Of a DNA stretch of 38,416 nucleotides, positions 2,402 to 19,578 are shown in pieces. This DNA comes from Leptolyngbyaceae cyanobacterium M33_DOE_097 (GTDB taxonomy: Bacteria; Cyanobacteriota; Cyanobacteriia; Leptolyngbyales; Leptolyngbyaceae), in NCBI GenBank assembly GCA_015296075.1, contig DVDV01000420.1, forward strand, positions 1 to 38,416. The letters run 5' to 3'. The notes beneath the pieces are model-generated. The model was not told the DNA's origin and ran no database searches. It saw only the letters and a list, made by a program, of their open reading frames with translations. Made by a program: the position numbers and the translations under genes. Each line of letters begins with the position of its first letter. Within the stretch, counting starts at the first letter, position 1.

Positions 2402-3382
2402 ATGCTGAATTCTTCTGTATCCGTCATCATTTGCACTTTAGATAGAGGTAATTTTCTACGACGTGTGATGACTAACATTGCTAGTTGGCGATCGGCGTTT
2501 CAAGAATTGATTGTCGTTGTCGGACCTACGCAAGATGATACAGAATGTATCCTGTCAGAAAACAAACATCTTATTAATCAAATAATCTTTACAGACTTAC
2601 GAAATGTGAGTATTGCGAGGAATTTAGGGTTGAGAGCTGCTTCCCAGGAGATTATTTTGTATCTAGATGATGATGTGATTGCCTCGACGGAGTGGGTAGC
2701 TTCCCATGTTAGGGCGCATCAAGAGCAGGGATTGAGTTGTGGTTGTGTTGCTGGAGCCGTAGCAGATAAAACCCGATCAGATACGCCCTTGCAGTTTTCA
2801 CGGGGAGTTCACAATCGGTTGAGTGTATCTCATCCCGTGTTGTCGATCGCAGCCGAACAACGCTATCTCTCTAGCTCCCGTTGGTTTTCTGGGGTGATGG
2901 GAGCCAATGCTTCCTACAAACGAGAGGCACTAATGAAAATTGGGTGCTTTGATGAATTTTTTGAATATTTTTTGGAGGAGACTGATGTTTGTTTACGACT
3001 GTCTAATGCGGGTTACACCATCCATCGTATTGATGTCACAGTAAATCATTACGTTCAGCCCAGCCATAACCGCCGCGATCGCCGCCACCTCACCTGCTGG
3101 TACTCGCTTGCTAAAAACACGACCTATTTTGCGCTCAAGCATGGTGAGGAGTGCATCTATTCTCCAATTTTTCTGATGCGCCTCGCCGGACTGCTAATGT
3201 ATCGCTGTCTTCTGAGAATCCTGCGTCTCAGGTTCACCCATCACCTCCCGAATGCGCTGTTGCTGCAATATATTCGAGAAGCGATCGCAGGAGTTGGGGA
3301 GGGCTTGAAAGCCGGACTGCAATTTCACAATGCGAAGTCCTATCAGTTGGCTGAGCCTAAAAAACAACTAAGCGGAGAGTAG
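2402..3382 (+). CDS. Glycosyltransferase family 2
   Basis: A GT-A fold glycosyltransferase of 326 residues. The N-terminus SVSVIICTLDRGNFLRRV is the nucleotide-sugar-binding start of family 2. The metal-binding acidic motif is LYLDDDV near residue 88, and the FDEFFEYFLEETDVCLRL stretch near residue 190 is the usual acceptor/catalytic-base region. No long membrane anchor is visible, although a weak hydrophobic stretch (IFLMRLAGLLMYRCLLRIL) near residue 255 could attach it to the membrane. It probably transfers a sugar onto a lipid-linked glycan on the cytoplasmic side. It opens the co-directional run up to 10.4 kb. Its 3' end at 3278-3330 is homologous to 4211-4263, next to the broken FAAL. 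Donor and acceptor cannot be read from sequence. Confidence 0.85.
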   Translation: MLNSSVSVIICTLDRGNFLRRVMTNIASWRSAFQELIVVVGPTQDDTECILSENKHLINQIIFTDLRNVSIARNLGLRAASQEIILYLDDDVIASTEWVASHVRAHQEQGLSCGCVAGAVADKTRSDTPLQFSRGVHNRLSVSHPVLSIAAEQRYLSSSRWFSGVMGANASYKREALMKIGCFDEFFEYFLEETDVCLRLSNAGYTIHRIDVTVNHYVQPSHNRRDRRHLTCWYSLAKNTTYFALKHGEECIYSPIFLMRLAGLLMYRCLLRILRLRFTHHLPNALLLQYIREAIAGVGEGLKAGLQFHNAKSYQLAEPKKQLSGE

Positions 3383-4287: not shown

Positions 4288-5892
4288 ATGCCCTATCTAC
4301 TGCAACAGCTTTTGGAGAACAGCGCCAAGCAACATCCAAACAAAGAAGCTGTCGTCTATAAAAACACTGTCATTACCTACCAGGAGCTAGACATTGCCTC
4401 CAACCAGTTAGCCTGGACTCTAAAAAATGCTGGAATTGAGAAAGGCAATCGCGTTGGGATTTGCCTGAATAAATCTATTGAGGAAATCGTTGCGATTTAC
4501 GGCATTCTAAAAGCGGGTGCGGTCTATGTCCCGATCGATCCAGCTTCTCCAATTCAGCGAATTGTCTATTTTATTGAAAATTGTCACAGCAAGGTTTTAG
4601 TCACAACTCAAAAGACCGCCACAAAGCTCTATCAAGAATTTTTAGATCAGATTGCCACTTCGATTCAGCAGATTATTTTGATCGATGAAGATGCAAAAGA
4701 CAGAAGAGAATTCTGTCAAACAAAAGTTGTAACGTGGCAGCAAGTATTGCAATCACCCAAAGAGCCTTTGCCATGCAACAACCTGATCGATTGCGATTTA
4801 GCTCACATAATGTATACATCGGGTTCTACAGGCAATCCTAAAGGTGTAATGTTAACGCACCGATCTATTTTGAACTTTGCCAGTTGTTTCTACCACTGTC
4901 TTGAAGTGCAACCGAGCGATCGTCTTTCGCATCAACTCCAAATCTATTTTGCGGCCTCTGTAGTTGATATTTTTACTTCAATTCAGGCTGGCGCAACGAT
5001 CGTCGTAGTACCACCAGAGCTTGCGGTGTTTCCGGTTGACTTGGCTAACTTTATTGAGGCACAGCGAATCACGATTTGGTTTTCAGTTCCCTCTCTGCTC
5101 ACTCAACTGGTGCTTCGGGGTAATTTACAGCAGCATCAATTTCAGCATTTGAGACAAGTTTTGTTCGCGGGTGAACCCTTTCCGATTCAATACCTGCGTC
5201 AACTCATGCAATTGATGCCACAGGTTGAATACTGCAACATTTATGGTTCTGCGGAAACGGGTGCCCGGACGTACTACCGATTTAGAACTCTTCCTTCTGA
5301 GTTAGATGCAGTTCCGATTGGTCAAGCCTGTGCCAATACTGAACTGTTTATTGTGAATGATGAAGGTCAAATTGCTAAAACAGGAGAGGTAGGAGAGCTA
5401 TATGCACGCGGCTCTTCAGTGATGAAGGGCTACTGGGGAATGCCAGAGAAAACGAAGGAGGTGCTTGTGCCCTACACGGTGTATCCCCAGTTGGGTGAGG
5501 AAACTGTGTTTCGAACTGGCGACCTAGTAAAGCAGGAGGCTGATGGCAACTATAGGTATGTGGGTCGCCGAGATCATCTGATTAAAAGTCGAGGCTATCG
5601 GATTGAACTGGAGGAGATTGAGAAGGCGATTCAAAGGCATCCTGACGTTGAAGAAGTCGTGGTAATTGCAATTCCTGATGAGGAAATTGGTAATCGACTG
5701 AAGGCTGTTGCAGTCCTCAAACCTGGAAGTGATTTGCAGCAAAATACTCTACAATCCTTCTGTGCCCAGACTATTCCGAATTATATGGTTCCTGAAAGTA
5801 TTGAGTTTCGTTCTCAGTTACCTAAAACCTCTACTGGAAAGATTGATCGAGTAATGTTGGGTCGAGAACTGAGAGATGCAGACAGATCATAG
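4288..5892 (+). CDS. Free-standing AMP-dependent acyl/aryl-acid ligase (adenylation domain)
   Basis: A complete 534-residue adenylate-forming enzyme with no fused carrier. Visible motifs are A3 (MYTSGSTGNPKGVMLTH, residues 175-191), A5 (NIYGSAETG), A7 (FRTGDL), A8 (GRRDHLIKSRGYRIELEEIE) and A10 (PKTSTGKIDR, with the adenylation lysine at 518). It should activate a carboxylic acid as acyl-AMP and load it on a carrier, most simply the carrier domain encoded 18 bp downstream. The A4 region reads YFAASVVDIF (220-229), where amino-acid-activating NRPS domains normally have FDxS; the Asp that binds the alpha-amine is Ala here, so the substrate is probably not an ordinary alpha-amino acid. The ATG follows a reasonable AAGGGA ribosome site. 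It lies between two FAAL fragments. Confidence 0.85.
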   Translation: MPYLLQQLLENSAKQHPNKEAVVYKNTVITYQELDIASNQLAWTLKNAGIEKGNRVGICLNKSIEEIVAIYGILKAGAVYVPIDPASPIQRIVYFIENCHSKVLVTTQKTATKLYQEFLDQIATSIQQIILIDEDAKDRREFCQTKVVTWQQVLQSPKEPLPCNNLIDCDLAHIMYTSGSTGNPKGVMLTHRSILNFASCFYHCLEVQPSDRLSHQLQIYFAASVVDIFTSIQAGATIVVVPPELAVFPVDLANFIEAQRITIWFSVPSLLTQLVLRGNLQQHQFQHLRQVLFAGEPFPIQYLRQLMQLMPQVEYCNIYGSAETGARTYYRFRTLPSELDAVPIGQACANTELFIVNDEGQIAKTGEVGELYARGSSVMKGYWGMPEKTKEVLVPYTVYPQLGEETVFRTGDLVKQEADGNYRYVGRRDHLIKSRGYRIELEEIEKAIQRHPDVEEVVVIAIPDEEIGNRLKAVAVLKPGSDLQQNTLQSFCAQTIPNYMVPESIEFRSQLPKTSTGKIDRVMLGRELRDADRS

Positions 5893-5910: not shown

Positions 5911-7809
5911 ATGGCACGAAAAGCCTATACCGAAGTAGAAATTGAACAACTGCTCACAGACTATATTGTGCAAACATTTCTTTATGAAGAATCGAAGACA
6001 GACCTGACAAATACTTCGCCTTTGATTGAGTCAGAGATTATCAACTCTTTAAAGATTCTGACGCTCATTAGTTTTATTGAAGAAAAATTCAGCATCTCGA
6101 TAGCATCAGAAGAGATGATTCTAGAGAACTTTAAAGATGTTAACTCAATTAGATCTATGGTTCTAAGTAAAGTTGAAGTATCAACTCAACCAGTAATTAC
6201 TCAAGAAGTTAGAGAAAGAAAGCTATTATCAACTATTCCATCTAAATCAGCTTGTAGCAAGCAACCTTTCTTTGATAAGACAGCTTGTGAATTAGATAAT
6301 AGAAATCATGAGGTAACTCAATACCTATTATCTTCAGAAAGATCATCTGAAAATGTTAAAAGCAAAATTGTAGCACCATTAACTCTTGTCAATCTCTTAC
6401 ATGACTGCGCCTGTCAATATCCAAACAAAATAGCCTACACCTTTCTAGAAGATGGAAAGTCTGAAAGTAGCCAACTCACTTATCTACAGCTCGATAAAAA
6501 AGCAAGGGCAATAGCGGCCTACCTACGGTCCCAACTATCTCATGGGGAACGAGTTTTACTGGTATATCCTCAAGGATTAGAGGCAATCGCCGCGTTATAT
6601 GGTTGTCTCTATGCTGGAGTTGTTGGTGTTCCTGCCTTAGTTGGAACATCAGAATTAAAGCGAGAACTGCCGAGATTGGAGGCAATTGCAGCGGATCCAG
6701 GAGCCTCTCTCATCTTGACTATGAGCAACCTGCTTACAAAAGCGAATGACACCTTGATCTTTCAAGCGAAGAGTTTCATTGGGCAGATTAAGGAGCGATC
6801 GTTTCTGTTGCTACACTATTACTTGGCAGCGGAAGCAAGTTCCCAAGGCTCGTCTCACTTGGCATCCTTACCTTGGGTCGCCACCGAGAGCATTCCCGAT
6901 TACTTTGCTGCTCGTTGGCGATGTCCGAATATTAACCATGATACTCTTGAATACTTTCAATATGCCTCTAGTGCTCTGTCAATGCCTAAAGCAGTGTTAC
7001 TTGACAACACCAATTTCATGGAACACTTGCATGTTTTAGTAGAAGCACTGACTATCAATCAATTCTCCAATCTTTTTGGTCAACAAATCCAGGAAGTAAG
7101 TTCCAGATCTTTAATTCCAATTAAACCAAATGGTAACAAACGTCCCTTCTTTTATGTTCATGGTGCAGATGGTCTCGCCATTGACCCTATTTTAAGGAGA
7201 TACATTGATTCAAATCGCCCGTTTTATGGATTACAAGCACTAGGCATAGATGGATACAAAATTCCTCATGTTTGTTTAGCGGAGATGGTAAATTACTACA
7301 TTCAAGAAATCCAAACTATTCAACCTGAACCTCCCTATTCGCTGGGAGGCCGTTGTACGGGAGGAATTATTGCTCTTGAAATGGCTCAAGAATTAAGAAA
7401 GCGTGGTCAACAGGTTTCGATAGTGGTGATGGTAGATAGCCCAAAACCATTGTTCACAGATGGAGAAAAGAAAAATTTATGCAATTGGATAATTCAAAAT
7501 AAATTCAACCGAAAAGAAGAGTTAATAAGGAGTGGTTTTAGCGTTAAACAAGCTGAAAATCTTATTCAAATTTTAGACAACAATATACTAATTCAATGTA
7601 ATTACTTACCAAGAACATATTTAGGAGCAGTTACTTACTTTACCGCGCAAGAGAAGACGAATTTAGCGCAGACTCTTGATTGGGATGATTGGATTGTCAA
7701 CAAACTCAAAGTATATGAAGTTCCCGGAAATCACTTGAGTATGGTTCAAGAGCCTCATGTTCAGGTACTAGCAGAGAAATTGAATGCTTGTTTAGAGGAA
7801 GCAGATTGA
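5911..7809 (+). CDS. Acyl carrier protein - degenerate FAAL - thioesterase fusion
   Basis: A 632-residue fusion. Residues 5-85 form an acyl carrier domain; the phosphopantetheine serine is probably S46 in INSLKIL, where the usual Asp before Ser is Asn. Residues 155-385 resemble a FAAL N-terminal half, but its P-loop (normally YTSGSTGxPKG) reads YASSALSMPKA at 351-361 and the C-terminal domain is absent, so it should be catalytically dead. Residues 402-630 form an alpha/beta-hydrolase thioesterase (FFYVHGADG, D509, H608 in PGNHLSM). Its nucleophile elbow is GRCTG (480-484), giving Cys482 where most type I thioesterases have Ser. It probably accepts the acyl group activated by the upstream ligase and releases or transfers it. 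The gap between FAAL remnant and thioesterase looks like a deletion joint. The start is the ATG 18 bp after the ligase stop, with AGAGG upstream. Confidence 0.8.
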   Translation: MARKAYTEVEIEQLLTDYIVQTFLYEESKTDLTNTSPLIESEIINSLKILTLISFIEEKFSISIASEEMILENFKDVNSIRSMVLSKVEVSTQPVITQEVRERKLLSTIPSKSACSKQPFFDKTACELDNRNHEVTQYLLSSERSSENVKSKIVAPLTLVNLLHDCACQYPNKIAYTFLEDGKSESSQLTYLQLDKKARAIAAYLRSQLSHGERVLLVYPQGLEAIAALYGCLYAGVVGVPALVGTSELKRELPRLEAIAADPGASLILTMSNLLTKANDTLIFQAKSFIGQIKERSFLLLHYYLAAEASSQGSSHLASLPWVATESIPDYFAARWRCPNINHDTLEYFQYASSALSMPKAVLLDNTNFMEHLHVLVEALTINQFSNLFGQQIQEVSSRSLIPIKPNGNKRPFFYVHGADGLAIDPILRRYIDSNRPFYGLQALGIDGYKIPHVCLAEMVNYYIQEIQTIQPEPPYSLGGRCTGGIIALEMAQELRKRGQQVSIVVMVDSPKPLFTDGEKKNLCNWIIQNKFNRKEELIRSGFSVKQAENLIQILDNNILIQCNYLPRTYLGAVTYFTAQEKTNLAQTLDWDDWIVNKLKVYEVPGNHLSMVQEPHVQVLAEKLNACLEEAD

Positions 7810-7864
7810 TATTATTGATTGCAGTAGTAGCCTAAACCTGTAGACTGGGAACTAGAAAAGAAGT

Positions 7865-10414
7865 ATGGGTAAAGATAATGTACTTGAAATTTACGATGAA
7901 GCCTATGCCCAGGAGTATAATCAAAAGTTTCTTCTAAATATGAGATCCAAAATAGATACTGATTTTGAAGAGGAAACAATCAACAAGCTCTTAAGTGAAA
8001 TTGGCAACGGAGCAACATGGTTAGATGTCGCATGTGGTACGGGCTACTTTCTAAGCTGCTTCCCCAATGTAGAAAGAGCAGGACTTGATATTTCACCTGC
8101 AATGCTTAAAGTAGCAAAACAGGCAAACCCAGATGCTTTGTTTGTTCAAGGCGACTATCGAGATCAACGTCCACAGTGGGAAGGAAAGTGGGATTTAGTC
8201 ACCTGCATGTGGTGGGCCTATGGATATGTAGAGTCGTTATCACAGCTAGAAATCGTCGTTGAAAATCTCACAGATTGGACATCTGAACGAGGAGTTTGTT
8301 TTCTTCCCATATGCGTTCCCGAAGACATCGGGGCTGGGAACATCAAACTGCCGTATAGCCAAGATGTAGCTGTATACGGCGGAACAATTCGTTTTGAAGG
8401 AATCATTTGGAGTTGGACCGAAAATGTTGAAAAACTACATCTCAATTTGTTGGCTCCACAACTAGAGTACATGGTTGCTCTATTTAAGAAATACTTCGAA
8501 CAAGTAGAGATTATTGACTATCCGTTAGTTGAAGGAGCATGTAGAAAAGCAATCGTCGCTCGTTCCAAGAAGCAAAAAGAAGTTTCTCAGACAAAAGCAA
8601 AAATTGAGATTTTAACAACGAATGCTTTCTTTTCGCCATTCTTTAAAGCAATTCGATCGCACGATTGGTGGCTCTACAAAATTCCACCTTTGCTGACGAT
8701 CGCCTACGCCGAAATTCTCCTACTGAATCTCCCTGTTCTCCAATCGCTCCTCACTGTAGCTGCATTGCTGTTTGCGATCGCCTGTGTCGCAGCCTACGGA
8801 CATATTATCAACGACAGTTTCGATGTTGAAGTCGATCGACAGGTTGGCAAACGCAATGCAATGGCGCAATTCTCGCTTTGGCAACGCGCCCTGTTTTGCC
8901 TTGCTTTGGCAGGGCTAGGATTCAGCCTGCCTGTCTTGATGAAATTTAGCACTTTGGCGATCTCCCTGTTAGGTATCAACTATCTGCTGCCCACCCTCTA
9001 CTCCGCCCCACCCTTCCGCTTCAAAGAAAAAGGCATCTTAGGCATTCTCAGCGATGCTGCTGGCGCACATGCCATTCCCACCCTCTTCATTGCCACCACA
9101 TTTGCTCATCTCGTTGCTGCACCACCACTGCAAGGGATAGGGTTAGCGATCGCTGCAACCGCATGGTCATCCTTCGCCGGAATTCGAGGCATACTTCTAC
9201 ACCAACTTTGGGATCGTGACGATGACCTGCGATCGCAGGTAAAAACGTTAGTGACAGAATCTAATGTCGAAAACGTTCGGTTTTGGATGAGTCGTATTAT
9301 CTTTCCGATCGAAATGCTGCTGCTCGGTTCACTCATCCTCGTTATTTCCTACTCCACACCCCTCATTCTCGTTTTCACTGTTTTCTATTTCCTCTCCAAA
9401 CTCGCCCTCACTAAATCAGACCCGACATCGACTTTCGATCCCGCACCCGTTGAAAAATCCTATGTCGTTCCCCACGATTTCTACGAAGTTGGATTACCAC
9501 TTATCCTGGTAACTGCCCTCTCGTTGCAAAATCCCTGGTTTGCTATCTTACTCTTGCTCCAGGTCACTCTCTTCTACCCCGGTATCGAACGACGAGTCAC
9601 CAACCTGGCGCAATCCCTACGGGGTAAACCACAAGATCTAAATCCACTACAAACTCAACTTACAGCTTCACAAGCAGAAGTCGCGCAATTGCAGACTACC
9701 CTTCAACAAACCCAGAACCAGTTAGAGCAGGTTCAATCTGAGCTACAGACACAACTGAATACTTCGCACGCAGAAGTGGCACAGTTATACGTACATATTC
9801 AGCAAGCTCAAAACCAATTGGGACAAGTCCGGGAGCAACTGCAACATTTGCAAACAGAGGCTCAACGCGATCGCACCCAAACCCAAGCCGAACTCGCAAA
9901 CCTTCAGGCAGAAATTGCTCAGGCTGAAGCTGCACGACAGACTTCACAAGTCGAAGCAATGCGACTCAAGGCATTCCTGCAAACTCAGGGATCAGACGGT
10001 TTGCTGAACTACTATCGCCATGCGATCGCGACCAACCCTGATGACATCCAACTTTACTATCAAGCCCTCGAAATTCAACCCGATGATGTTCAGTTTCATC
10101 TACAGTTAGGCAACGCTTTAGTCAGACAAGGGCAGATTACGGAGGCGATCGCCCGTTACCAGATCGCGCTTCAACTCCATCCAGACCAGTTTGAACTGCA
10201 CTTTGAGTTAGCAAAAGCTTTAGAGAAGAATCAGCAGTGGGATGACGCGCTCGCCTCCTACCGACGAGCGATTGGCCTCAATCCTAACCACTCTCTAGCT
10301 CATCAGCACTTAGGCGATGCTTTAGCTGAATGTGGGCGGATTCACGAAGCGAGTCTCTCTTATCGCCACGCCTTACAACTGCAATATAAATTTTCTGAAT
10401 CATTAAGAAGATGA
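7865..10414 (+). CDS. Methyltransferase - UbiA prenyltransferase - coiled coil - TPR fusion
   Basis: An 849-residue four-part protein. Residues 1-235 are a class I SAM methyltransferase with motif I WLDVACGTGYF (52-62) and GLDISPAML (73-81). Residues about 255-590 are a polytopic UbiA-family prenyltransferase with the first Asp-rich motif N316-D-S-F-D320-V-E-V-D324, a YSAPPFRFKEKG segment, and a second motif D450-R-D-D-D454. Residues about 595-715 are a Gln/Glu/Ala-rich coiled coil, and 720-849 hold about three TPR repeats. UbiA enzymes move a polyprenyl group onto an aromatic or sugar-phosphate acceptor; in glycan loci the known example is decaprenyl-phosphoribose synthesis. Here a role in making or modifying a lipid carrier is inferred. 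The coiled coil and TPRs may dock partners. The whole length is one open frame, so the fusion is not an annotation artefact of joined ORFs. Confidence 0.8.
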   Translation: MGKDNVLEIYDEAYAQEYNQKFLLNMRSKIDTDFEEETINKLLSEIGNGATWLDVACGTGYFLSCFPNVERAGLDISPAMLKVAKQANPDALFVQGDYRDQRPQWEGKWDLVTCMWWAYGYVESLSQLEIVVENLTDWTSERGVCFLPICVPEDIGAGNIKLPYSQDVAVYGGTIRFEGIIWSWTENVEKLHLNLLAPQLEYMVALFKKYFEQVEIIDYPLVEGACRKAIVARSKKQKEVSQTKAKIEILTTNAFFSPFFKAIRSHDWWLYKIPPLLTIAYAEILLLNLPVLQSLLTVAALLFAIACVAAYGHIINDSFDVEVDRQVGKRNAMAQFSLWQRALFCLALAGLGFSLPVLMKFSTLAISLLGINYLLPTLYSAPPFRFKEKGILGILSDAAGAHAIPTLFIATTFAHLVAAPPLQGIGLAIAATAWSSFAGIRGILLHQLWDRDDDLRSQVKTLVTESNVENVRFWMSRIIFPIEMLLLGSLILVISYSTPLILVFTVFYFLSKLALTKSDPTSTFDPAPVEKSYVVPHDFYEVGLPLILVTALSLQNPWFAILLLLQVTLFYPGIERRVTNLAQSLRGKPQDLNPLQTQLTASQAEVAQLQTTLQQTQNQLEQVQSELQTQLNTSHAEVAQLYVHIQQAQNQLGQVREQLQHLQTEAQRDRTQTQAELANLQAEIAQAEAARQTSQVEAMRLKAFLQTQGSDGLLNYYRHAIATNPDDIQLYYQALEIQPDDVQFHLQLGNALVRQGQITEAIARYQIALQLHPDQFELHFELAKALEKNQQWDDALASYRRAIGLNPNHSLAHQHLGDALAECGRIHEASLSYRHALQLQYKFSESLRR

Positions 10415-10468: not shown

Positions 10469-10858
10469 TCAGGGTTTCTTCACCTCACACGATGCTAGCC
10501 CATTCGCTTTTTTGATTAGTTTCTCGTCAAATGTATAAAAGCAGGTATGCTGCTGGCTCTGAGCTAAATGAAAAGCATCGGCAAAATCTAAACCGTTTTC
10601 ATGCCATTGCAAGGCTTGGGCAATGAGGTTTGCGTGGCTGAGATGAACATTCGGTAAGCCAAACAGTTTGCGTAATGCTAAACATATCTCAGTCGGTTTA
10701 AACCCGTATGCAAATCTCAACACCCACTCAGTTTCAAGTATCACTGTATCAGGGATAAAAACATCCTGATTTTCAAAGATCTCTCGGCTTTTTTGATACT
10801 GCAATTCGTCATCTTGAGTCAACAATCGCACAACAACATTAGTATCAACTGCGACCAT
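10469..10858 (-). CDS. vapC: VapC-type PIN-domain ribonuclease toxin
   Basis: A 129-residue PIN domain, the usual size for VapC. The N-terminus VAVDTNVVVRLL places the first catalytic Asp at residue 5. A conserved Glu lies in VILETEWVL, the DFADAFHLAQ motif supplies the C-terminal acidic pair, and FYTFDEKLIKKA closes the fold. VapC toxins cleave RNA, often tRNA or rRNA, in a Mg-dependent way. It overlaps the upstream antitoxin by 14 bp on the same strand, the classical toxin-antitoxin layout. The pair is convergent with the TPR-fusion gene and has the TPR remnant on its other side. Confidence 0.87.
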   Translation of the reverse strand: MVAVDTNVVVRLLTQDDELQYQKSREIFENQDVFIPDTVILETEWVLRFAYGFKPTEICLALRKLFGLPNVHLSHANLIAQALQWHENGLDFADAFHLAQSQQHTCFYTFDEKLIKKANGLASCEVKKP

Positions 10859-11108
10859 GCCATTCCTCTTCTATGCCTCGACGAATAGCATCATCCATCG
10901 CTTCAATCGATTTTGATCCTCTTGAAGACTTCAAACAACCTGCAACATCACTTAAGGTTGTTTCAGCAAATGGTTTTTTGGGTTTGAGAAGAATGCCCTC
11001 ACCCGTATCAATTAACAGCAATTCCTGACCCGCTTCCCAACCATAAGCGTTTCGCATCGTTTGCGGAACCAGCACATGTCCTTGCTCGGATACTCTTGTT
11101 GTTTCCAT
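10845..11108 (-). CDS. vapB: VapB-type (AbrB/SpoVT fold) antitoxin
   Basis: About 87 residues from METTRVSEQGHVLVPQTMRN. The first 50 residues form an AbrB/MazE-like swapped-hairpin DNA-binding domain (GHVLVP, AGQELLLIDT, GILLKPKK). The rest is a helical tail (TLSDVAGCLK ... AMDDAIRRGIEEEWHG) typical of the segment that wraps the PIN toxin. It should neutralise VapC and repress the operon. The frame can be extended to 11138, but the ATG at 11108 matches where the family fold begins. Confidence 0.83.
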   Translation of the reverse strand: METTRVSEQGHVLVPQTMRNAYGWEAGQELLLIDTGEGILLKPKKPFAETTLSDVAGCLKSSRGSKSIEAMDDAIRRGIEEEWHGRS

Positions 11109-11162
11109 GCGGCAATCAAATGAAGAAGCTATACCCAATTATCGCATGAGCGCGAGGCACTG

Positions 11163-11388
11163 TTGGACAACGAGCAAGCTTGGTTAGACAAAAATATCGC
11201 TGGGATGCGATCGCCCGTTACCAGATCGCGCTTCAACTCCGTCCAGAATGGCAGCTTATCGACGGGCGATCGATTTGAATCCTCGTCACTCTTTGGCACA
11301 TCAGCACTTAGGCAATGCCTTAACAGAGCGAGGCCAAATTCGTGAAGCCAGTGCGTCTTATCGTCGGTCTTTGCAAGAAAGAACTTGA
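11163..11388 (+). pseudogene. Frameshifted TPR-gene remnant
   Basis: This stretch is a broken copy of the TPR-coding 3' end of the fusion gene at 7865-10414. Positions 11207-11240 are identical over 34 bp to 10145-10178. Reading across frames gives DAIARYQIALQLRPEW, then after a frame change AYRRAIDLNPRHSLAHQHLG and EASASYRRSLQERT followed by a stop. The second block aligns with about 10250-10385 of the intact gene. No single open frame covers it. It overlaps the 3' end of the ABC ATPase gene antisense. Confidence 0.75.
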
Positions 11389-12719
11389 AGTTGACACTCG
11401 CCAGGTAAATCACAGATACCAAAATGAGAATCTTGGTTATGACTGTAATGAGGCTTTACATAGAAGGTTCCTACTTTCTCATAGACATCACAGATTCTGA
11501 AGTGATTATTTACTTCTGCTTGTGGAAGTTCATCTAACTGTTCATAAATCGTTTGTGACGTTGTAACTAGCGCAAAACCAAGGACATACTGACCTGGTGC
11601 AATACTGAAATTAATACTGCGACAGAAGCGAACTAAGTCTCCTTCATTCGCTGTACAAGAAACGCTCACTCGGTGTTGGTGAGAGCCTTTAGCATGAACG
11701 AGAGTGTTGAACTTGTTTGTAATCATGACACAGGCGATCGGCACCCCAATCGCTTTCTTGATCAGAAACTCACAACAAAGATAAGCCTGTTCTCCTTGTT
11801 GAAATACAGTCGAAAACTGTCCTTCTTGATTACAAATTGCGTAGCGAATGAGTTGTGCTTCCTCAGCATCAGGCGAATCAACTGCAACAAAATTCTCATC
11901 AGTTGCCCAAAAAAATTCTTGTGTCTCTTCTAATACGTTGAGCAATGATTTCATTCGGGTAACGGATTGAGCAACCGGATTAAACTGCCCTGTTCTTAAT
12001 TGATGGAACTGAATAATTCCCTTGCGAGGTTCTCCTTGAAAAATGACTCTTCCTTGATGTAGCAAAATGACTTCTTTACAGTACTGTTGCACTGCGTCAA
12101 GTCCATGAGTCACCAAAATGATCGTGACTTTTCGGGCAATCAGTTCTTCCAGTCGGGCATAACATTTCTGTTGAAAGAAAATATCTCCGACTGCCAGCAC
12201 TTCATCCAAAATCAGCACATCACATTCCAGGAAGGCGAAAAGGGAAAAGGCTAACCTGGCTCGCATGCCGGAGGAGTAGAGCTTCATAGGGCGATCGAAA
12301 AACTCACCTAGTTCTGAGAATTCCTCAATCTCCTTCAAGCGGCTTTGCACATATCCTGGCGGAAATCCTAATAGTTCAGCACTGTAGATCGCATTGGCTC
12401 GTCCACTCAATTCAAAGTTAAAATCTGTACCCAACTCCAGCAGGGAAAGCACTTTGCCATTCAACCGATAGCTGCCCTCCGTTGGTTTTAGAACTCCGGT
12501 AATAATCTTCAGCAGAGTGCTTTTTCCAGCACCATTTTCGCCAATAATGCCTAAAAATTCACCCTTTCGCACTTCAAACGAGACATTTCTCAATGACCAA
12601 AAGGGTTGATGATAAGTACGGTTTTTAAGACTGACCCACTCCCGCGCTCGATCCCAGGGATTACTGTAAATTTTAAAGCACTTCCCCAAATTCTCGACTT
12701 GTAATACGACATCGCTCAT
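11358..12719 (-). CDS. wzt: Polysaccharide ABC exporter ATPase (Wzt-like)
   Basis: The ATP-binding subunit of an O-antigen/teichoic-acid-type ABC exporter, 453 residues. The nucleotide-binding domain has Walker A GENGAGKST (60-68), signature YSSGMRARLAF (148-158), Walker B CDVLILDE with AVGD after it, and the H-loop VTHG near 204. Residues about 265-445 form an additional C-terminal domain of the Wzt type, which in characterised systems recognises the chain end of the glycan before export. Its ATG overlaps the permease stop by 4 bp (ATGA), so the two are translationally coupled. The last eight codons or so lie antisense within the TPR remnant, which suggests that the original C-terminus was replaced. 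Confidence 0.9.
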   Translation of the reverse strand: MSDVVLQVENLGKCFKIYSNPWDRAREWVSLKNRTYHQPFWSLRNVSFEVRKGEFLGIIGENGAGKSTLLKIITGVLKPTEGSYRLNGKVLSLLELGTDFNFELSGRANAIYSAELLGFPPGYVQSRLKEIEEFSELGEFFDRPMKLYSSGMRARLAFSLFAFLECDVLILDEVLAVGDIFFQQKCYARLEELIARKVTIILVTHGLDAVQQYCKEVILLHQGRVIFQGEPRKGIIQFHQLRTGQFNPVAQSVTRMKSLLNVLEETQEFFWATDENFVAVDSPDAEEAQLIRYAICNQEGQFSTVFQQGEQAYLCCEFLIKKAIGVPIACVMITNKFNTLVHAKGSHQHRVSVSCTANEGDLVRFCRSINFSIAPGQYVLGFALVTTSQTIYEQLDELPQAEVNNHFRICDVYEKVGTFYVKPHYSHNQDSHFGICDLPGECQLQVLSCKDRR

Positions 12720-13507
12720 ACTACGTCTCGCACATCATCTTGAAGATTTTCATTGATGCTGATGCCCAACCACAGAAAGAACAAAATCCAGGCGGTCATG
12801 GCGAACCAACTTTGAAGGTCAGGAATCCGGTTTTCTAGGATGATGTAGCGAATTGATTTAATAAAAGCATAGGGTGGATTGAGATAGAGAAAGGGTTGAA
12901 CTGATATTGGAATAATCGTATCGGGATAAAAAATAGGCATTGTCCAGCTCCACAGCGGAATAAGGAACTGAAGTATTTGCCGGATATCTGGAAATAGGGT
13001 TTGCAGGTTTGCCAGAGCAAGTTCCATGCCAAATCCTAACCCTTGCAAAAGGAATGCTAACAGTGGCAGCAGCAGCATTCCAAGACCTAGTTTTCCACCA
13101 AACAGTGCGCTCAAAGGCAACAAAAACACCAGATAAATGAACAGCAGGAGTAAAGAAGTAATAGTAATCTTTGCTACAAAAATTTCAGGCGGAATGGCTA
13201 ATCGCTTTAGGTAAGTCGCATTTTGGCTAAAGGCATCACCACCTTGGGCGATCGCATCCACAAAGGTACGCCACGGCAACAGTCCGCTGGTCAAGTACAG
13301 TGCATAGGAATATTGCTGTGTTTCTCCCCGCGAAATCAACAGCGAGAAAACAATTGTGTAAATCACAATTTCGCATAAGGGATGAATCAAATTCCAGAAA
13401 ATACCCATGCCTGTCCCTGCATAGCGGAGATGCAGCTCATTCCAGGCATTGTAGAAGATATAGCGGCGATAGCGGTAAAGGTTACGAAATAACAAAGATT
13501 GTTTCAT
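12716..13507 (-). CDS. wzm: Polysaccharide ABC exporter permease (Wzm-like)
   Basis: A 263-residue ABC-2 type membrane protein with about six hydrophobic segments, starting MKQSLLFRNLYRYRRYIFYN and containing the family-typical YAGTGMGIFWNLIHPL near residues 29-44 and PLWSWTMPIFYPD near 190. It forms the channel that moves undecaprenyl-linked polysaccharide across the inner membrane with the ATPase encoded next. ATG at 13507 overlaps no other gene, and the 93-bp gap to the divergent GT gene must hold both promoters. The length is normal for the family. Confidence 0.9.
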   Translation of the reverse strand: MKQSLLFRNLYRYRRYIFYNAWNELHLRYAGTGMGIFWNLIHPLCEIVIYTIVFSLLISRGETQQYSYALYLTSGLLPWRTFVDAIAQGGDAFSQNATYLKRLAIPPEIFVAKITITSLLLLFIYLVFLLPLSALFGGKLGLGMLLLPLLAFLLQGLGFGMELALANLQTLFPDIRQILQFLIPLWSWTMPIFYPDTIIPISVQPFLYLNPPYAFIKSIRYIILENRIPDLQSWFAMTAWILFFLWLGISINENLQDDVRDVV

Positions 13508-13618
13508 CTCCTATCATTTCTACATAAAAGTTTGAGGCGTTAAAGTCGTTTCCCTCTTTTATGAATGCTTGCTCTTGTATAGTATCGAAGAGATTTAGAA
13601 GTGAAGCACGTGAGTGCA

Positions 13619-15907
13619 ATGTCTACTGTAACTCCATTCACCCATGTCAATGAGTTTATTGACCTTTTGCGAACTACAAAATCGACGTTCTGTGCCGCTG
13701 ATGAGTCAACATTTCCTGTCGTTTCTGTTATATCCTCCTTTTTCAATGCCCATCAGTATTTTGAAGCGACCTATCAGTCTGTAATCAATCAGACTTTTCA
13801 GAACTTTGAATGGCTTATTGTTGATGATGGTTCCACTGATCCAGTGGCAATTTCTTTGGTGCAATCTTTATCTACTCGTTCAAGAAAAATCAAAACTCTA
13901 AAGCATGACTTTAATCAAGGGCCATCAGCAGGTAGAAACACCGCGATCGCGCAGGCAAAAGGAGCTTATCTCTTCTTTATTGACCTGGATGATCTAATTG
14001 ATCCAACCTACATTGAAAAATGTGTCTTGTTTTTAGAATCCCATCCTGAATTTTCTTTTGTAAATTCTTACTCCGTTGGATTCCAGGCTCAAGCATACTG
14101 GTGGGCGCATGGTTTCAACCAATTGCCTCAATTTATCCATCAGAACTGGGTGACAGGACGGTTGTTGTATCGCAAGTCAGATTTTGATCTTTTAGGCGGA
14201 TTTGATGAAGACCTCCGAGTATACGAAGACTGGGAGCGATGGCTAAGGGCGATCGTCAACGGGCAAAAAGGTTGGACACTTCCTGAATATCTCGATTGCT
14301 ACCGTCGTTGTGATTCAGGTTTACTGGCTACTTCTCGTGAAAATTTACTTGAAGAGAAACGAATTACTCGTTTGATCAAAACTCGCTATCAAGACTCTTT
14401 TGAGAAGAAATCTTTTAATCATAGTGAAGTTAGAAGAAACAGTTTCGATGTGCATCAACTGCAATTTAAGTTTGCAATCACGAACTTGCTAAAGCGCGAA
14501 ACGGCTAAGCAGCATATTCTGTGCTTTTTTCCACACTTAGAAGTGGGTGGAGCCGATCGCTTCAATTTAGACCTCATCACCCTACTAACGAAGCGTGGTT
14601 ATAAATTTACGATCGCAACCACTCTAAAATCAGACCATCCCTGGAATCAGCACTTTTACGCAATCACACCGGATATTTTTCATTTACCTAATTTTTTGAA
14701 TGAGTATCATTGGCTAGCGTTCGCTCGATACATGCTTGAGTCGCGCCAAATTGATCTTGTCTTTATCTCTAATTGCTATATTTCCTACTACTTTTTGCCA
14801 ATTCTGCGGAAGGAGTTTCCTCGCATCGCCTTTGTTGACTTGACTCATACAATTGATCCCGGTTGGCGTGGCACAGGTTATCCTCGCTTATCGTGTCAGT
14901 TCAGTCAGTTTCTTGACTGTCAGGTTGTCACCTCTCAATCCTTAGCAAAGACGTATCAAAATACCAAGTTCATCGATTCTACAAAACTGAGAGTCTGCTA
15001 CACCAATATTGGTGCAGACCTGTGGGTTCATAGTCCGCCAAAGCGGCAAAGTCTGCGCTCAACCCTCAATATTAGCGATGACACGATTGTTCTACTCTTT
15101 CCTAGCCGAATTGTTGAGCAGAAGCGTCCGCTATTCCTGGTTGACATTGTTCAATCACTGGTTAAACATCATTCGTCTATTTTAGTCATCGCGATCGGTA
15201 GTGGGGAGTTGCTACCCGCAATGCAAACGAAGATCCACCAACTGAGTCTAGAGCCTTACTTCCATCTCTTGCCTGCAGTTGAACCCTTCGAAATGCTTAG
15301 CTACTACTCCGCTGCTGATATTCTGCTGTTGCCTTCAGCTTATGAAGGAGTTTCACTGGCAATTTATGAAGCAATGGCCATGCAACTTCCTGTGGTTGCC
15401 TCAGACGTGGGAGGACAGGCAGAACTTGTCATTCCCGAAACAGGCTTTTTAGTAGCGAAAGGAAATGGTGATGGACAAGAAGTACAAGCCTATGTCCAGG
15501 TGTTGCTACCTCTGATTCAGAATCAACCGTTACGTCAAGCAGTGGGAGAGAGCGCGCGCCAACGGATTGTTGAGTCGTTTAGTCTGACCCATATGGCTGA
15601 TCAAATAGAAACCATATTCCAAGCAGCGATTACCTCACGTCAAATTAGTTCCAGTTTTGAGGTGAACCAGGCGATCGCGGAAGAAACGCTATTAATGGCA
15701 CTGGAATACCTACACCAGGAGCAAGCCATAACTCAACTATGGCAAGAAAAATGCGGTTTAGAAAAAGTAAAGCTTCAGTTAGAAGAAGAAAAACATGAAT
15801 TGACCTGGAAAAAGCGAGCAATGGAGTCATCCAAGTTTTGGCAGTTGCGACAACAATGGTTCAAGCTCAAGCGGCTGCTGCGATTAACTCAGGAGGAGGA
15901 AATCTAA
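13619..15907 (+). CDS. GT2-GT4 bifunctional glycosyltransferase
   Basis: A two-domain glycosyltransferase. Residues about 35-265 are family GT2 (VVSVISSFFNAHQYFEATYQ, FEWLIVDDGSTD, FFIDLDDLIDP). Residues about 300-680 are family GT4 with the GT-B fold: HILCFFPHLEVGGADRFNLD at the start and the donor-binding E-x7-E segment PSAYEGVSLAIYEAM later. The C-terminal 80 residues are a charged coiled coil ending near SKFWQLRQQWFKLKRLL, a tail often seen on cyanobacterial and rhizobial glycosyltransferases. Two successive sugar transfers by one chain are likely. A GTG at 13601 with GAAGAG upstream could be the true start, adding six residues. It is divergent from the ABC permease and probably co-transcribed with the sulfotransferase and the GT4-GT2 gene downstream. 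Confidence 0.87.
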   Translation: MSTVTPFTHVNEFIDLLRTTKSTFCAADESTFPVVSVISSFFNAHQYFEATYQSVINQTFQNFEWLIVDDGSTDPVAISLVQSLSTRSRKIKTLKHDFNQGPSAGRNTAIAQAKGAYLFFIDLDDLIDPTYIEKCVLFLESHPEFSFVNSYSVGFQAQAYWWAHGFNQLPQFIHQNWVTGRLLYRKSDFDLLGGFDEDLRVYEDWERWLRAIVNGQKGWTLPEYLDCYRRCDSGLLATSRENLLEEKRITRLIKTRYQDSFEKKSFNHSEVRRNSFDVHQLQFKFAITNLLKRETAKQHILCFFPHLEVGGADRFNLDLITLLTKRGYKFTIATTLKSDHPWNQHFYAITPDIFHLPNFLNEYHWLAFARYMLESRQIDLVFISNCYISYYFLPILRKEFPRIAFVDLTHTIDPGWRGTGYPRLSCQFSQFLDCQVVTSQSLAKTYQNTKFIDSTKLRVCYTNIGADLWVHSPPKRQSLRSTLNISDDTIVLLFPSRIVEQKRPLFLVDIVQSLVKHHSSILVIAIGSGELLPAMQTKIHQLSLEPYFHLLPAVEPFEMLSYYSAADILLLPSAYEGVSLAIYEAMAMQLPVVASDVGGQAELVIPETGFLVAKGNGDGQEVQAYVQVLLPLIQNQPLRQAVGESARQRIVESFSLTHMADQIETIFQAAITSRQISSSFEVNQAIAEETLLMALEYLHQEQAITQLWQEKCGLEKVKLQLEEEKHELTWKKRAMESSKFWQLRQQWFKLKRLLRLTQEEEI

Positions 15908-15978: not shown

Positions 15979-17220
15979 GTGAGTCATTTAGAAAAACTTA
16001 TCTCTCATTATCAAAATGCACTAATTATCAAACCTGATAGTGCTTCTATTCATAGCAGTATTGGAAATTTATATGCAACTCAGAAAGAATTTGAGAAAGC
16101 AGTTTATCATTATATCAAATCGATCCAATTTAACCCAAGTTGTGGCTCCGTCTATTATTGCTTGAGGTATGCTTTGTTAAGCCTGAATTGGTTTAGCACA
16201 AGTAATAATACAACCATTATAGAAGAAGGAGTCCTGATATTACGACAAGTTGTAAATAGCCAACCCGATTTCTATTTTGCCAGTGTTGTTTTAGGCGTTT
16301 TACTAGAACATCAAGGGAAGACAAATGAGGCGATCGCCTGTTATCAATCTGCTAGCTACCGTCAAACTCTTTTATCCCATCCTCAGCTAACAAGGGAATT
16401 CTGGAATTGCGGTCAAAGCCGACAGCCAGACTTTCTTATTCTTGGATTCCCCAAATGTGGAACAACTTCTCTCTACGCTTATTTGGCATCTCATCCGAAC
16501 GTCTTACCTGCTATAACAAAAGAGATCCTTTATTTCACACACTCCACTACAAAAAATATTGAATATTACTTAGCCCATTTTCCATGCATTACGGATGCTA
16601 AATATATCACGGGCGAGGCATCTCCTTCTTACATTATGTTTCCTAACATAGCCCAAAGAGTGTTTAATTGGTTTCCCAACATCAAATTAATAATTCTCTT
16701 GAGAAACCCAGCAGATCGTACAATTTCTTCTTATTATCACCGATTCAAATATTTGAGGTGTGATAACAGAGAAATAGAATACATAATTGCTCGGTCTATT
16801 GAACAAGTAACTGATACCTTAGATAAATTCGTCACTCTTCTAAAGCTCAAAACTGAGCCAGTGGAGTTTATGAGAAATATTTTGAAAAATAACCTATGGA
16901 TGTCTGACGAAAATGAGATTTTGTCTGACTTGATAGGAAACCTCTATATTTATTACATTAAAGAATGGCTCAATGTTTTTCCTGAAAACCAAATTTTAAT
17001 TGTAAAAAGCGAAAATTTATTCAACAATCCATCAGAAAGTATGAGAGAAATATATGATTTTCTCGACTTGCCAGACCACCCATTGTTGGAATATCCCAAT
17101 TTTAATCCAAATTCTTATTCATCTATTTCTAGTCATTCAAGGCAGCAATTGATAGATTTCTTTCGCCCTTATAACCAGCAGCTAGAAGAATACTTAGGCA
17201 TGAAGTTTGATTGGAAGTAA
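15979..17220 (+). CDS. TPR-sulfotransferase fusion
   Basis: A 413-residue protein. Residues 1-130 hold about three TPR-like repeats (YQNALIIKPDSASIHSSIGN, EFEKAVYHYIKSIQFNPS, NEAIACYQSA). Residues 149-413 are a PAPS-dependent sulfotransferase: the 5'-phosphosulfate loop GFPKCGTTSLYAYL (156-169), and the 3'-phosphate site with R242 and S250 in LRNPADRTISSYYH (241-254). It should transfer sulfate from PAPS to a carbohydrate hydroxyl, probably on the glycan made by the neighbouring transferases. The start is a GTG at 15979, as no ATG fits better, and the ribosome site is weak. The codon usage is more AT-rich than in its neighbours, which suggests a separate origin. A vestigial APS-kinase fragment follows 22 bp downstream. 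Confidence 0.87.
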   Translation: MSHLEKLISHYQNALIIKPDSASIHSSIGNLYATQKEFEKAVYHYIKSIQFNPSCGSVYYCLRYALLSLNWFSTSNNTTIIEEGVLILRQVVNSQPDFYFASVVLGVLLEHQGKTNEAIACYQSASYRQTLLSHPQLTREFWNCGQSRQPDFLILGFPKCGTTSLYAYLASHPNVLPAITKEILYFTHSTTKNIEYYLAHFPCITDAKYITGEASPSYIMFPNIAQRVFNWFPNIKLIILLRNPADRTISSYYHRFKYLRCDNREIEYIIARSIEQVTDTLDKFVTLLKLKTEPVEFMRNILKNNLWMSDENEILSDLIGNLYIYYIKEWLNVFPENQILIVKSENLFNNPSESMREIYDFLDLPDHPLLEYPNFNPNSYSSISSHSRQQLIDFFRPYNQQLEEYLGMKFDWK

Positions 17221-17242: not shown

Positions 17243-17329
17243 ATGATTCTGTGGTTCACCAGATTTAGTGGCATACGTAAAACGACGATCGCCCAGTACC
17301 TAAAGCATCAACTTTCTGCATCGATATGA
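17243..17329 (+). pseudogene. Vestige of an APS kinase (CysC) N-terminus
   Basis: A 28-codon frame starts MILWFTRFSGIRKTTIAQYL and continues KHQLSAS. It matches the N-terminal P-loop region of adenylylsulfate kinase, whose consensus is about LWFTGLSGAGKTTIAQAL. The loop glycines are altered (GLSGAGK to RFSGIRK) and the rest of the roughly 180-residue enzyme is missing, so it cannot bind ATP normally. Its TGA overlaps the ATG of the next gene as ATGA, which could still allow translational coupling. APS kinase makes PAPS, the donor for the sulfotransferase directly upstream. Confidence 0.65.
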
Positions 17330-19578
17330 AACTCTTTTTGATCGCCAGCGAATGTCCACCCGTTCCAGGGGGGATTGCTACCTATGTTGGCAATACAGCG
17401 GCGATGTTTGCCGATGCCGGACATGACATCACTGTTTTCGCGCGTAGCCATCAACCCAGTATCGAACGACAGGGACATTGCACCTGGATCAAAATTGCTC
17501 CCAGGGATGTGCATCTCCTGTCTAGAACCCGATCGCACCCCCGCTCTGAAACCCATCCCGCCTTTCCCTACAACGTCATGGGCTATTGGGGCGCTTTAAG
17601 TTATCAACTGGCGGAAACAGTCATTGCTCATATTCGAGAACACGGCAAGCCCGATGCGATCGAAAGTGAGGATTTTAGTGGACTGGCTTACTTCCTAATT
17701 CAACAAAAGTTGATTGGCTGCCCAGAATTAGAAGGAGTTCCAATCATTCTCACGCTGCACAGTTCTCAATACATGCTCTATCCAGCTAGTCAAATGCCTA
17801 GTTACCGCCTGTCTGATTACTGGGTTGGACGTATGGAGAAGTTCTGTACTCTGGCAGCCGATGGCCTTGCTGCTCCAACTCAGTGCATTGCGGATCAAGC
17901 GATCGCAGCATTAGGTACTGATTTAGACATTGAAATCATTCCTCTACCTGCAACAAAACAACTGCTTGACTCCCAACCACTTCCACAAGCTGAGCCACAA
18001 CCAAGCGACATCGTCTACTTTGGGCGACTGGAAGTGCGAAAAGGAATTGTGCCGTTAGTCGAAGCCTGTAGCCGATTATGGGATGCTGGAGTAGAGTTTT
18101 GCCTAACGGCGATCGGAGGGGATACCTGGTATCACCTTCAGGGTTGTTCCATGAAAGCTTACTTGCAGCAAAAATATCATCGGTATATTGAAACAGGTCA
18201 ACTCATTCTCTCTCCACCCCTTTCTCAACCCCAACTCTACGAACGGATTGCCAAAGCCTGGTGTGTCGTCATTCCCTCCTTATGGGAGAACTTTCCAAAT
18301 ACCTGCATGGAGTCGATGTTGCTGGGAAAGTTGATCTTGGCGAGTTCTGGGGTAGGCCATGTAGAAATGCTTCAGGCTGAAAAAGACGCAGGTATTTTGT
18401 TCGATTGGCAGATACCTGGTGATTTTGAGCGGCAACTCAAGCACGTTCTGTCACTTCCTTCTAAAGAAATCCTGAAAATAGGGCAGCAAGCACAGAAGGC
18501 AGTTCTGACCACTTCTAATCATACTCAGGTTCTCTCGCAACGACTGGAACACTTAGAAAAGGTCATTCAATGCCATCGCAAAAGAACCTTCTTCCCATCC
18601 TTAAACTATCCACCACACGGTCAAGTTCCCCATCCTCAAATCTTATCGAACGACTCCAGTGTTTCAGGTAAAGTATCCGTCTGCATCCCCTTTTACAATC
18701 ACGGGCAATTCATCGAAGAAACACTAGAATCAGTTTTTGCTTCTGATTATCCAGTTATGGAAGTAATTCTGCTAAACGATGGCAGCACTGACTCACAAAG
18801 TCTGACAAAATTGGCAGACATTCAGCATCAATACCCAAGTTTAAAGGTGATTCATTCCCATAATCAGGGTGTTGCTGCGGCTCGTAATCATATGGCCGCG
18901 ATCGCGAGTGGTGAATACCTTGCCTTCCTTGATGCTGATGATAGGATTTCTCCCCACTTCTACACCTATGCGGTGCATGTGTTGAACCAGTACTCTAACG
19001 TTGGCTTTGTTGCTTCTTGGCTCAAAGAATTTGGCAGTTCTCAAAAAGTTTGGATTGCCTGGAATCCTGAATTTCCCTATCTGCTTTGCCACAATATGCT
19101 GGGCGTCTGTACGGTTGTGCGGAAGTCTGCTTACCAAGCAACAGGTGGAATGAAATCTGCCTTAGCTGAAAATCTAGAAGACCATGAGTGTTGGATTAGC
19201 TTGTGTGAGCAGGGGTGGGCAGGCGTGGTGATTCCAGCATTCCATTACTTCTACCGAATTCGCCCTACCTCTCGACTCGGAAACAGCAATCGGGAGCAGT
19301 TGTTGTATTTGTATGAGGCGATCGCCCGTTTACATCCCGATTTATATCGCAAATATAGCTCTGAAATTTATCACCTACTCAATCAAAACGGTGCTTCTTG
19401 GCTATGGGATAACCCTTCTTACAATTCAACTGTGTCAACAACAGATTTAACAGGTATGGAAATCTTGACACTTGCTGCAAATAAGTTGAGGCGAATGCGG
19501 AGTGATGGGGGCATCGCTTTAATCATTAGAAAATTTCTACTTCTAGCTGCATCTGGTTTCCACAGATGGCGGCGGTAA
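17326..19578 (+). CDS. GT4-GT2 bifunctional glycosyltransferase
   Basis: A 750-residue protein with the domain order reversed from the gene at 13619. Residues 1-410 are GT4 (KLFLIASECPPVPGGIATYV at the N-terminus, DIVYFGRLEVRKGIVPLVEA near 230, and the SLWENFPNTCMESML donor site near 325). Residues about 445-690 are GT2 (KVSVCIPFYNHGQFIEETLE, EVILLNDGSTD, YLAFLDADDRI). A short basic tail follows. It should add two sugars in sequence. The ATG sits in the ATGA overlap with the APS-kinase vestige. It is the last gene of the island before the tRNA; no clear terminator follows, but an inverted repeat lies at 19646-19699. Confidence 0.88.
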   Translation: MKLFLIASECPPVPGGIATYVGNTAAMFADAGHDITVFARSHQPSIERQGHCTWIKIAPRDVHLLSRTRSHPRSETHPAFPYNVMGYWGALSYQLAETVIAHIREHGKPDAIESEDFSGLAYFLIQQKLIGCPELEGVPIILTLHSSQYMLYPASQMPSYRLSDYWVGRMEKFCTLAADGLAAPTQCIADQAIAALGTDLDIEIIPLPATKQLLDSQPLPQAEPQPSDIVYFGRLEVRKGIVPLVEACSRLWDAGVEFCLTAIGGDTWYHLQGCSMKAYLQQKYHRYIETGQLILSPPLSQPQLYERIAKAWCVVIPSLWENFPNTCMESMLLGKLILASSGVGHVEMLQAEKDAGILFDWQIPGDFERQLKHVLSLPSKEILKIGQQAQKAVLTTSNHTQVLSQRLEHLEKVIQCHRKRTFFPSLNYPPHGQVPHPQILSNDSSVSGKVSVCIPFYNHGQFIEETLESVFASDYPVMEVILLNDGSTDSQSLTKLADIQHQYPSLKVIHSHNQGVAAARNHMAAIASGEYLAFLDADDRISPHFYTYAVHVLNQYSNVGFVASWLKEFGSSQKVWIAWNPEFPYLLCHNMLGVCTVVRKSAYQATGGMKSALAENLEDHECWISLCEQGWAGVVIPAFHYFYRIRPTSRLGNSNREQLLYLYEAIARLHPDLYRKYSSEIYHLLNQNGASWLWDNPSYNSTVSTTDLTGMEILTLAANKLRRMRSDGGIALIIRKFLLLAASGFHRWRR

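Follow-up and report, generated by a model that had tools for sequence, protein, structure and literature searches.

The DNA analysed here (the window, 38,416 nucleotides from Leptolyngbyaceae cyanobacterium M33_DOE_097) corresponds to contig C41 of a 6.96-Mb genome, and its closest named locus is that of Stenomitos rutilans. It encodes a protein of 849 aa (7865..10414, + strand) in which an S-adenosylmethionine (SAM) methyltransferase (MT), a UbiA prenyltransferase, a coiled coil and tetratricopeptide repeats (TPRs) are joined in one open reading frame (ORF). Our preferred reading, to which we assign a probability of about 0.45, is that this fusion is a bifunctional membrane enzyme of a glycan pathway with export by an ATP-binding cassette (ABC) transporter, that it methylates and prenylates a sugar-type acceptor, and that its coiled coil and TPRs form a cytoplasmic dock. 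By sequence, the UbiA domain of the fusion is a member of a subfamily that is linked to glycan genes and occurs in cyanobacteria, Bacteroidota and one gammaproteobacterium. The domains are known individually; the architecture and the subfamily are apparently undescribed among the matches listed in our literature search, where no title or start of an abstract described either of them, subscription journals being mostly outside that search.

Architecture and topology of the fusion

The MT domain spans residues 1–235 (7865..8569), with a Pfam match at residues 53–142, and is followed by the UbiA domain (residues 253–577; 8621..9595), whose Pfam model was matched over its cut-off at residues 278–509 (48.6 bits vs 34.2) and which comprises ten hydrophobic helices, nine canonical and one additional, according to Pfam and the AlphaFold2 (AF2) model. 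The coiled coil (residues 578–695; 9596..9949), whose length varies among homologues, lies C-terminal to the catalytic part and leads to a YYR-type cap and TPR tail (residues 696–849; 9950..10411), with Pfam TPR matches at about residues 730–840. The original prediction had described one frame of these four parts with both UbiA Asp motifs intact, and the ORF call, Pfam and the hydrophobic periodicity bear this out: N316, D317, D320, D324, D450 and D454 are all present, in motif 1 (N316-D317-x-x-D320-x-x-x-D324; 8810..8836) and motif 2 (D450-x-x-x-D454; 9212..9226). All these features are on the + strand.

Compared with the fused protein of Stenomitos, the pairwise ratio of nonsynonymous to synonymous substitutions (dN/dS) was low in all four parts (0.13–0.25): 0.23 for the MT, 0.13 for UbiA, 0.25 for the coil (79 codons aligned) and 0.15 for the tail. 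An artefact of assembly or gene calling was ruled out because, besides these low ratios, the fused pair occurs in five other genomes or plasmids, intact in Stenomitos, G376, G596 and Oscillatoria and broken in G252 (G and L numbers are our handles for genomes and loci). The 3.5-residue hydrophobic periodicity of residues 594–712 was reached by 0 of 10000 shuffles, and the distance between the end of UbiA and the tail is 118 residues in the window, 80 in Stenomitos and 138 in both copies of G376.

The additional tenth helix (residues 557–575; 9533..9589) was assigned from the AF2 model and from the counts of lysine plus arginine: with ten helices and the MT inside, 18 such residues fall in loops on the MT side and 1 on the other. 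This last hydrophobic stretch is kept in most aligned UbiA rows, L026 ending before it. Ten helices would place the coil and the TPRs on the cytoplasmic side together with the MT, and the tenth would thus return the C-terminus to the compartment where glycosyltransferases (GTs) act. The suggestion that the TPR tail is a docking arm is consistent with this topology, in that the tail probably lies in the cytoplasm, where it could dock partners, as judged from the periodicity and the charge counts.

The YYR cap is also present on MT-UbiA, PhyH and PhyH-UbiA proteins. At 1e-25, a search with the tail matched at least 18 of 291 genomes, the majority by partial TPR matches, and nothing firm follows from it for the tail as a general marker of glycan modules; the YYR cap pattern had no match in ORFs of at least 220 aa in five loci taken from that search. 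Between the fusion and the Wzt gene, the window holds a stretch of 47 codons without an inner stop (11239–11379, +) that is 66% identical to tail residues 793–839 and seems to be a decayed duplicate of the TPR tail; shortly before it, a second stretch resembling the tail lies in a different frame and runs into a stop codon.

Kind of UbiA enzyme and of methyltransferase

UbiA enzymes are familiar from the synthesis of quinones, chlorophyll, haem, archaeal lipids and polyprenyl-phosphoribose. The last of these had been offered as the analogy for the fusion, and it was not supported. As described in the available part of PMC10994848, decaprenyl-phosphate phosphoribosyltransferase (DPPRS) uses a single Mg2+ together with Lys residues to bind phosphoribosyl pyrophosphate (PRPP), whereas a second Mg2+ is required by the UbiA enzymes that act on prenyl diphosphates. 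By its sequence the fusion does not follow the DPPRS pattern of a one-Mg site with Lys and no second Asp motif, since its DxxxD is present: D320, D324, D450 and D454 are invariant in 13/13 rows of the subfamily alignment, while in the host's own DPPRS the second site has no DxxxD, that region reading GIEKRKAEL.

The predicted fold agrees with this. The AF2 model, built on an alignment of 13 sequences, had a predicted local distance difference test score (pLDDT) of 83–96 per ten-residue block over residues 271–510 of the UbiA part, lower at 511–540 and at its end, and nearly all MT blocks of the same model were below 60. A comparison with known structures placed AfUbiA with DMAPP or GPP first (4tq4; VIA-align Z 20.2, rmsd 3.4 Å, 262 residues), followed by ApUbiA (19.4), DGGGP synthase (18.2), UBIAD1 (16.4) and DPPRS (16.2), the gaps being modest because soluble polyprenyl synthases already reach 15.5 against the same model. 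The multi-helix intramembrane UbiA fold is present in the model, which is structurally nearer to the users of prenyl diphosphate than to DPPRS. The fusion shares with AfUbiA (4tq4/4tq3), ApUbiA (4od5) and DGGGP synthase (7bpu/6m31) this fold and the two Asp motifs, at a structural-alignment identity of 12–17%, and differs from them by its MT, coiled coil, TPRs, linkage to glycan genes and extra C-terminal helix. With the DPPRS enzymes Rv3806c and Citrobacter youngae ORF15 it has in common the UbiA fold, the first Asp motif and the location in glycan loci. ORF15 is itself a fusion, its partner being a HAD phosphatase instead of an MT (PMC11127046, in the part available), so that the stand-alone state described as normal for UbiA enzymes has exceptions.

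No match of the fusion's UbiA part to NCBIfam models named decaprenyl-phosphate phosphoribosyltransferase was found at E 0.001, while the host's DPPRS, a separate gene elsewhere in the genome, scored 254.9 bits against such a model (cut-off 207). The UbiA-type NCBIfam matches that the fusion does have are all far under their cut-offs, with NF009516 first (40.9 bits of 205). Six more proteins of the host pass the cut-off of the Pfam UbiA model, namely CtaB, 4-hydroxybenzoate (4HB) polyprenyltransferase, HPT, ChlG, MenA and DPPRS; these serve known pathways, which we count in favour of our preferred reading. In the tree, a branch (94/96, not starred) separates the 12 subfamily rows from these six. 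A quinone or chlorophyll enzyme was therefore rejected as a likely role, because the host has separate enzymes for those pathways and the subfamily lies apart; a firm placement in such a clade was not observed, although the deep forks are open and the deeper placement is unsure because of long branches. The motifs are clearer evidence than the tree or the NCBIfam matches as to which kind of UbiA enzyme this is.

For the MT part (METHYLTRANSFERASE), a profile of seven MT domains matched 22 PDB sequences at E 0.001, of which the best eight were DesVI (1e-13), six TylM1 variants (4e-13 to 4e-12) and CalS10 (4e-11), the next match having 4.4e-07. The match covers about residues 10–154 and, with these E-values, exceeds the similarity expected from the general MT fold, so that by sequence the MT appears nearest to nucleotide-aminosugar N-methyltransferases. 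These closest solved relatives are stand-alone soluble enzymes of antibiotic pathways, unlike the fused, membrane-tied MT. In a Foldseek search with the isolated MT model, glycine sarcosine MT and TylM1 ranked among the first and NodS came at rank 18, a ranking of little weight because that model is poor. A homologue in the Bacteroidota genome G714 is found near FdtA and DegT aminotransferase genes of amino-deoxysugar synthesis, which lends indirect support to a putative amino-sugar substrate.

Relatives and gene neighbourhoods

Only some first-look candidates were scored per genome (5 with A2, 9–13 with the other searches), so the genome tallies are lower bounds. At E 1e-20 the UbiA subfamily was present in at least 5 of 386 genomes of the cyanobacterial phylum sample and at least 7 of 388 of the class sample, in total nine distinct cyanobacterial genomes with the host included (G035, G634 and L013 were treated as one genome, counted once, and L023 and L024 both belong to G376). 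A family-level search at 1e-5 matched at least 4 of 42 genomes, two of them weakly (G022 and G004, about 1e-6). A plasmid collection added three records, from Oscillatoria acuminata PCC 6304, Nostoc sp. C052 and Methylomagnum ishizawai, and among viral contigs 64 pattern matches yielded no confirmed relative. In Bacteroidota, at least 6 of 296 genomes (that of L015 included) carry the subfamily, as do L014 and L016, and all eight proteins are stand-alone by ORF length.

Homologues are not always split at the domain borders. Six more cyanobacterial genes, one of them broken, carry the MT-UbiA pair as a fusion: those of Stenomitos (808 aa), G376 (two copies, 860 and 1025 aa), G596 (about 1079 aa), Oscillatoria, and G252, the last with an interrupted UbiA frame followed by a PhyH-coil-TPR frame. 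The Oscillatoria protein (WP_015163293.1) is 47% identical over 577 columns of MT-UbiA and differs by the order MT-UbiA-PhyH-coil and by the lack of a TPR match. The plasmid-borne Nostoc protein (WP_179070293.1; PhyH-UbiA-cyclase-like-coil-TPR) shares UbiA (50%) and the coil-TPR part (54%) and differs by its PhyH and cyclase-like domains and the lack of an MT match; both are annotated merely as PhyH or TPR proteins. G156 encodes PhyH-UbiA-cyclase-like-PhyH-coil-TPR. Stand-alone members were found among cyanobacteria in G092, G582 and G529, and on the Methylomagnum plasmid.

In G714 the two domains are separate genes two genes apart, in the order MT, GT4, stand-alone UbiA (34% identical), GT2, and its MT is 45% identical to that of the window over 238 columns (2e-75); an MsbA-type ABC transporter is also part of this locus. 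Searched alone at 1e-40, a threshold of our choice, the MT was found in at least 1 of 287 Bacteroidota (G714) and at least 2 of 242 cyanobacterial genomes (the host's own and G035), and all 3 also hold a subfamily UbiA. These are not independent draws because the samples of the MT and UbiA searches overlap (G714 is in both Bacteroidota samples, and the cyanobacterial samples overlap too). This co-occurrence, together with the split pair of G714, is the strongest sign that the MT and UbiA activities may belong to one pathway, and the proposal that they act as one functional unit is supported in some lineages.

The gene context was compared in 21 stretches holding a subfamily UbiA (20 loci and the window). 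With six GT queries (from the window, L085 and L014) at 1e-5, a GT match was obtained in 19/21, that of L023 being a short ORF at the edge. An export transporter was matched in 12/21: Wzm-/Wzt-type in the window, L013, L024, L043, L094, L027, L044, L045, L015 and L095, and MsbA-type in L085 and L088, with matches to other ABC ATPases only in L087. Homologues thus mostly sit in GT/ABC loci, in agreement with the glycan-locus role suggested for the fusion. PhyH-related proteins recur in the cyanobacterial loci, L015 and L095, and related GT stretches recur in other loci too. Squalene-hopene-cyclase-like proteins of about 350 aa lie near UbiA in L086 (10511–11605), L087 (3099–4139) and L088 (8604–9635), and a domain of this type is fused to UbiA in G156 and Nostoc (L025, L094). 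The Methylomagnum cluster (L095) combines UbiA, Wzm/Wzt, a GT, an MT and PhyH with a polyprenyl-diphosphate synthase upstream of UbiA (7689–8525; PF00348, 1.2e-36).

Within the window, the fusion is followed by a Wzt-like ABC ATPase with a Wzt_C domain (11358..12719, -; PF14524, 2.3e-11), a Wzm-like ABC permease (12716..13507, -; ABC2_membrane), a GT2-GT4 glycosyltransferase with a counterpart beside the Stenomitos copy (13601..15907, +), a TPR-sulfotransferase (15979..17220, +) and a GT4-GT2 glycosyltransferase (17326..19578, +). A PIN-domain gene and a small partner gene, AbrB-like by eye, lie between the fusion and the transporter (10469–11138, -); in Stenomitos two small genes, which presumably resemble XisI/XisH, occupy this slot (L013, 6321–7066). 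Upstream, Pfam identified a PhyH protein with two matched stretches (121–2217, -), which by eye ends in a seeming GT start and stops early, and a GT of family 2 (2402..3382, +). According to Pfam and NCBIfam, these are followed by a truncated N-terminus of a fatty-acyl-AMP ligase (FAAL; 3875–4240), an AMP-forming adenylating enzyme (4288..5892, +) and a gene combining an acyl carrier protein (ACP)-like segment, a partial FAAL and a thioesterase (TE; 5911..7809, +). The copies at 3875–4240 and 5911–7809 look rearranged, because L026 has the full FAAL-ACP-TE order. The adenylation, ACP and thioesterase genes were not seen beside the Stenomitos copy and are therefore more loosely associated with the fusion than are the transporter and the GTs.

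Three further sets of genes near UbiA were noted. Related radical-SAM proteins occur in L014 (2309–3604), L015 (5200–6480) and L095 (8633–10135, with Radical_SAM and SPASM). Mutually related genes, NodU-like carbamoyltransferases by eye, are found in L015 (6477–8339), L016 (2–1447) and L024 (11168–13003), their hosts being two Bacteroidota and one cyanobacterium. In G376 (L023, 9437–13810), the stretch that separates both copies of the fusion holds, in a row, an acyl-CoA dehydrogenase, an adenylation enzyme and a tryptophan-halogenase-like flavoprotein, which by analogy we take to suggest a (halo)pyrrole-type acyl unit.

Proposed function and alternatives

In our preferred reading, the acceptor methylated by the N-terminal MT would be of a sugar type, and the nearest relatives of the MT point to an amino sugar, carried on a nucleotide or a glycan, as the likeliest candidate. 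With a polyprenyl diphosphate, bound through the two Asp motifs and Mg2+, as donor, the UbiA part would prenylate this or a linked acceptor at the cytoplasmic face of the membrane. With the tail brought back to the cytoplasm by the tenth helix, the coiled coil and TPRs would hold glycosyltransferases near the product, and the prenylated glycan would be exported by Wzm/Wzt.

Several observations weigh against this reading. The MT is matched in only 8 of the 21 stretches (the window, L013, L023, L024, L026, L043, L085 and L093), with none nearby in the other 13, and the MT encoded in the Methylomagnum cluster is no orthologue of it. AF2 modelled the MT poorly both times (mean pLDDT 50.7 for the isolated domain), and amino-sugar genes were not found in the window. 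On the UbiA side, besides the high Z of the soluble synthases, N316 and D317 are nearly invariant only (L for N316 in G092, N for D317 in G376a), the second-best NCBIfam match of the fusion, NF006088 (28 bits, cut-off 351), is also matched by the host DPPRS (164.7 bits), and a grouping of the 12 subfamily rows with that DPPRS was not rejected in the tree (p-AU 0.293). Finally, two of the 21 stretches (L024 and L026) have no GT match, and a prenyl synthase was matched in 1 of the 21 only, that of Methylomagnum.

The main rival is a chain terminator similar to WbdD, in which the MT and UbiA, the latter as a second capping activity, modify the non-reducing end of the glycan, the coil sets the chain length and Wzt_C recognises the cap. 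The combination of an MT with another enzyme and a coiled coil, next to a Wzm/Wzt pair that carries Wzt_C, fits the pattern described in the available parts of PMC11231755 and PMC11127046 for WbdD and the Klebsiella O4 and O7 terminators (the MT in WbdD and O7). A Wzt_C domain is present in the Wzt of the window and in 4 of 6 others tested, and the variable coil length would suit a ruler. The former source, in the same part, also describes a TPR-like bundle in the O4 terminator and mentions cyanobacterial orthologues of the O7 terminator. The fusion differs from these proteins in having UbiA for a kinase (none was among the Pfam matches of the window at E 0.001), in its membrane embedding, in its sugar-N-methyltransferase-like MT and in a tail ending in TPRs, and the best 60 of the 66 PDB entries that the MT profile matched up to E 10 include none named WbdD. 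Moreover, membrane embedding keeps the two enzyme parts where the coil begins, so that the geometry of the ruler would be reversed with respect to the distal enzymes described in that part of PMC11231755, and the stand-alone members (326–378 aa) leave no room for such a coil. We consider a terminator unlikely.

Tailoring of a small molecule or meroterpenoid, in which the fusion would prenylate and methylate an acyl or aryl unit supplied by the adjacent adenylation, ACP and thioesterase genes, the product then being attached to the glycan or secreted, is quite unlikely in our view. It draws on the position of these genes directly upstream of the fusion, on the acyl-type genes between the G376 copies, one of which has a seeming partial thioesterase at its N-terminus (a match of the FAAL-ACP-TE query), and on AMP-ligase or FAAL-ACP-TE matches near the members of G596, G252, G156, Oscillatoria and Nostoc. 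In the window, however, several of the genes directly upstream are truncated, and no such match was obtained in Stenomitos (L013), the Bacteroidota, Methylomagnum or the three stand-alone cyanobacterial stretches, where GT matches persist.

A DPPRS-like enzyme that charges polyprenyl phosphate with phosphoribose from PRPP, the MT methylating the lipid-linked sugar, as the original prediction had it, is very improbable given the second Asp motif and the separate host DPPRS, even though DPPRS-type enzymes have the UbiA fold and are used in glycan loci (PMC11127046, in the part available), the fold is common to both (Z 16.2), and the tree and NF006088 leave some affinity.

Beyond the fusion itself, we tentatively propose, as a possibility well short of even odds, a lipidation pathway for exported glycans, in which the UbiA subfamily would attach a prenyl chain to a sugar and so provide a terpenoid anchor or cap. 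Its partners would vary by lineage among a sugar MT, PhyH oxygenases and a squalene-hopene-cyclase-like protein, the chain perhaps being cyclised or oxidised, and its users would be cyanobacteria, Bacteroidota and a methanotroph. If this is true, a UbiA subfamily that accompanies glycan genes in three phyla, with an MT physically linked to it in some members, would represent a new way of joining isoprenoids and sugars, and if the prenyl group serves as an anchor, it would bear on how the surface glycans of these bacteria are held.

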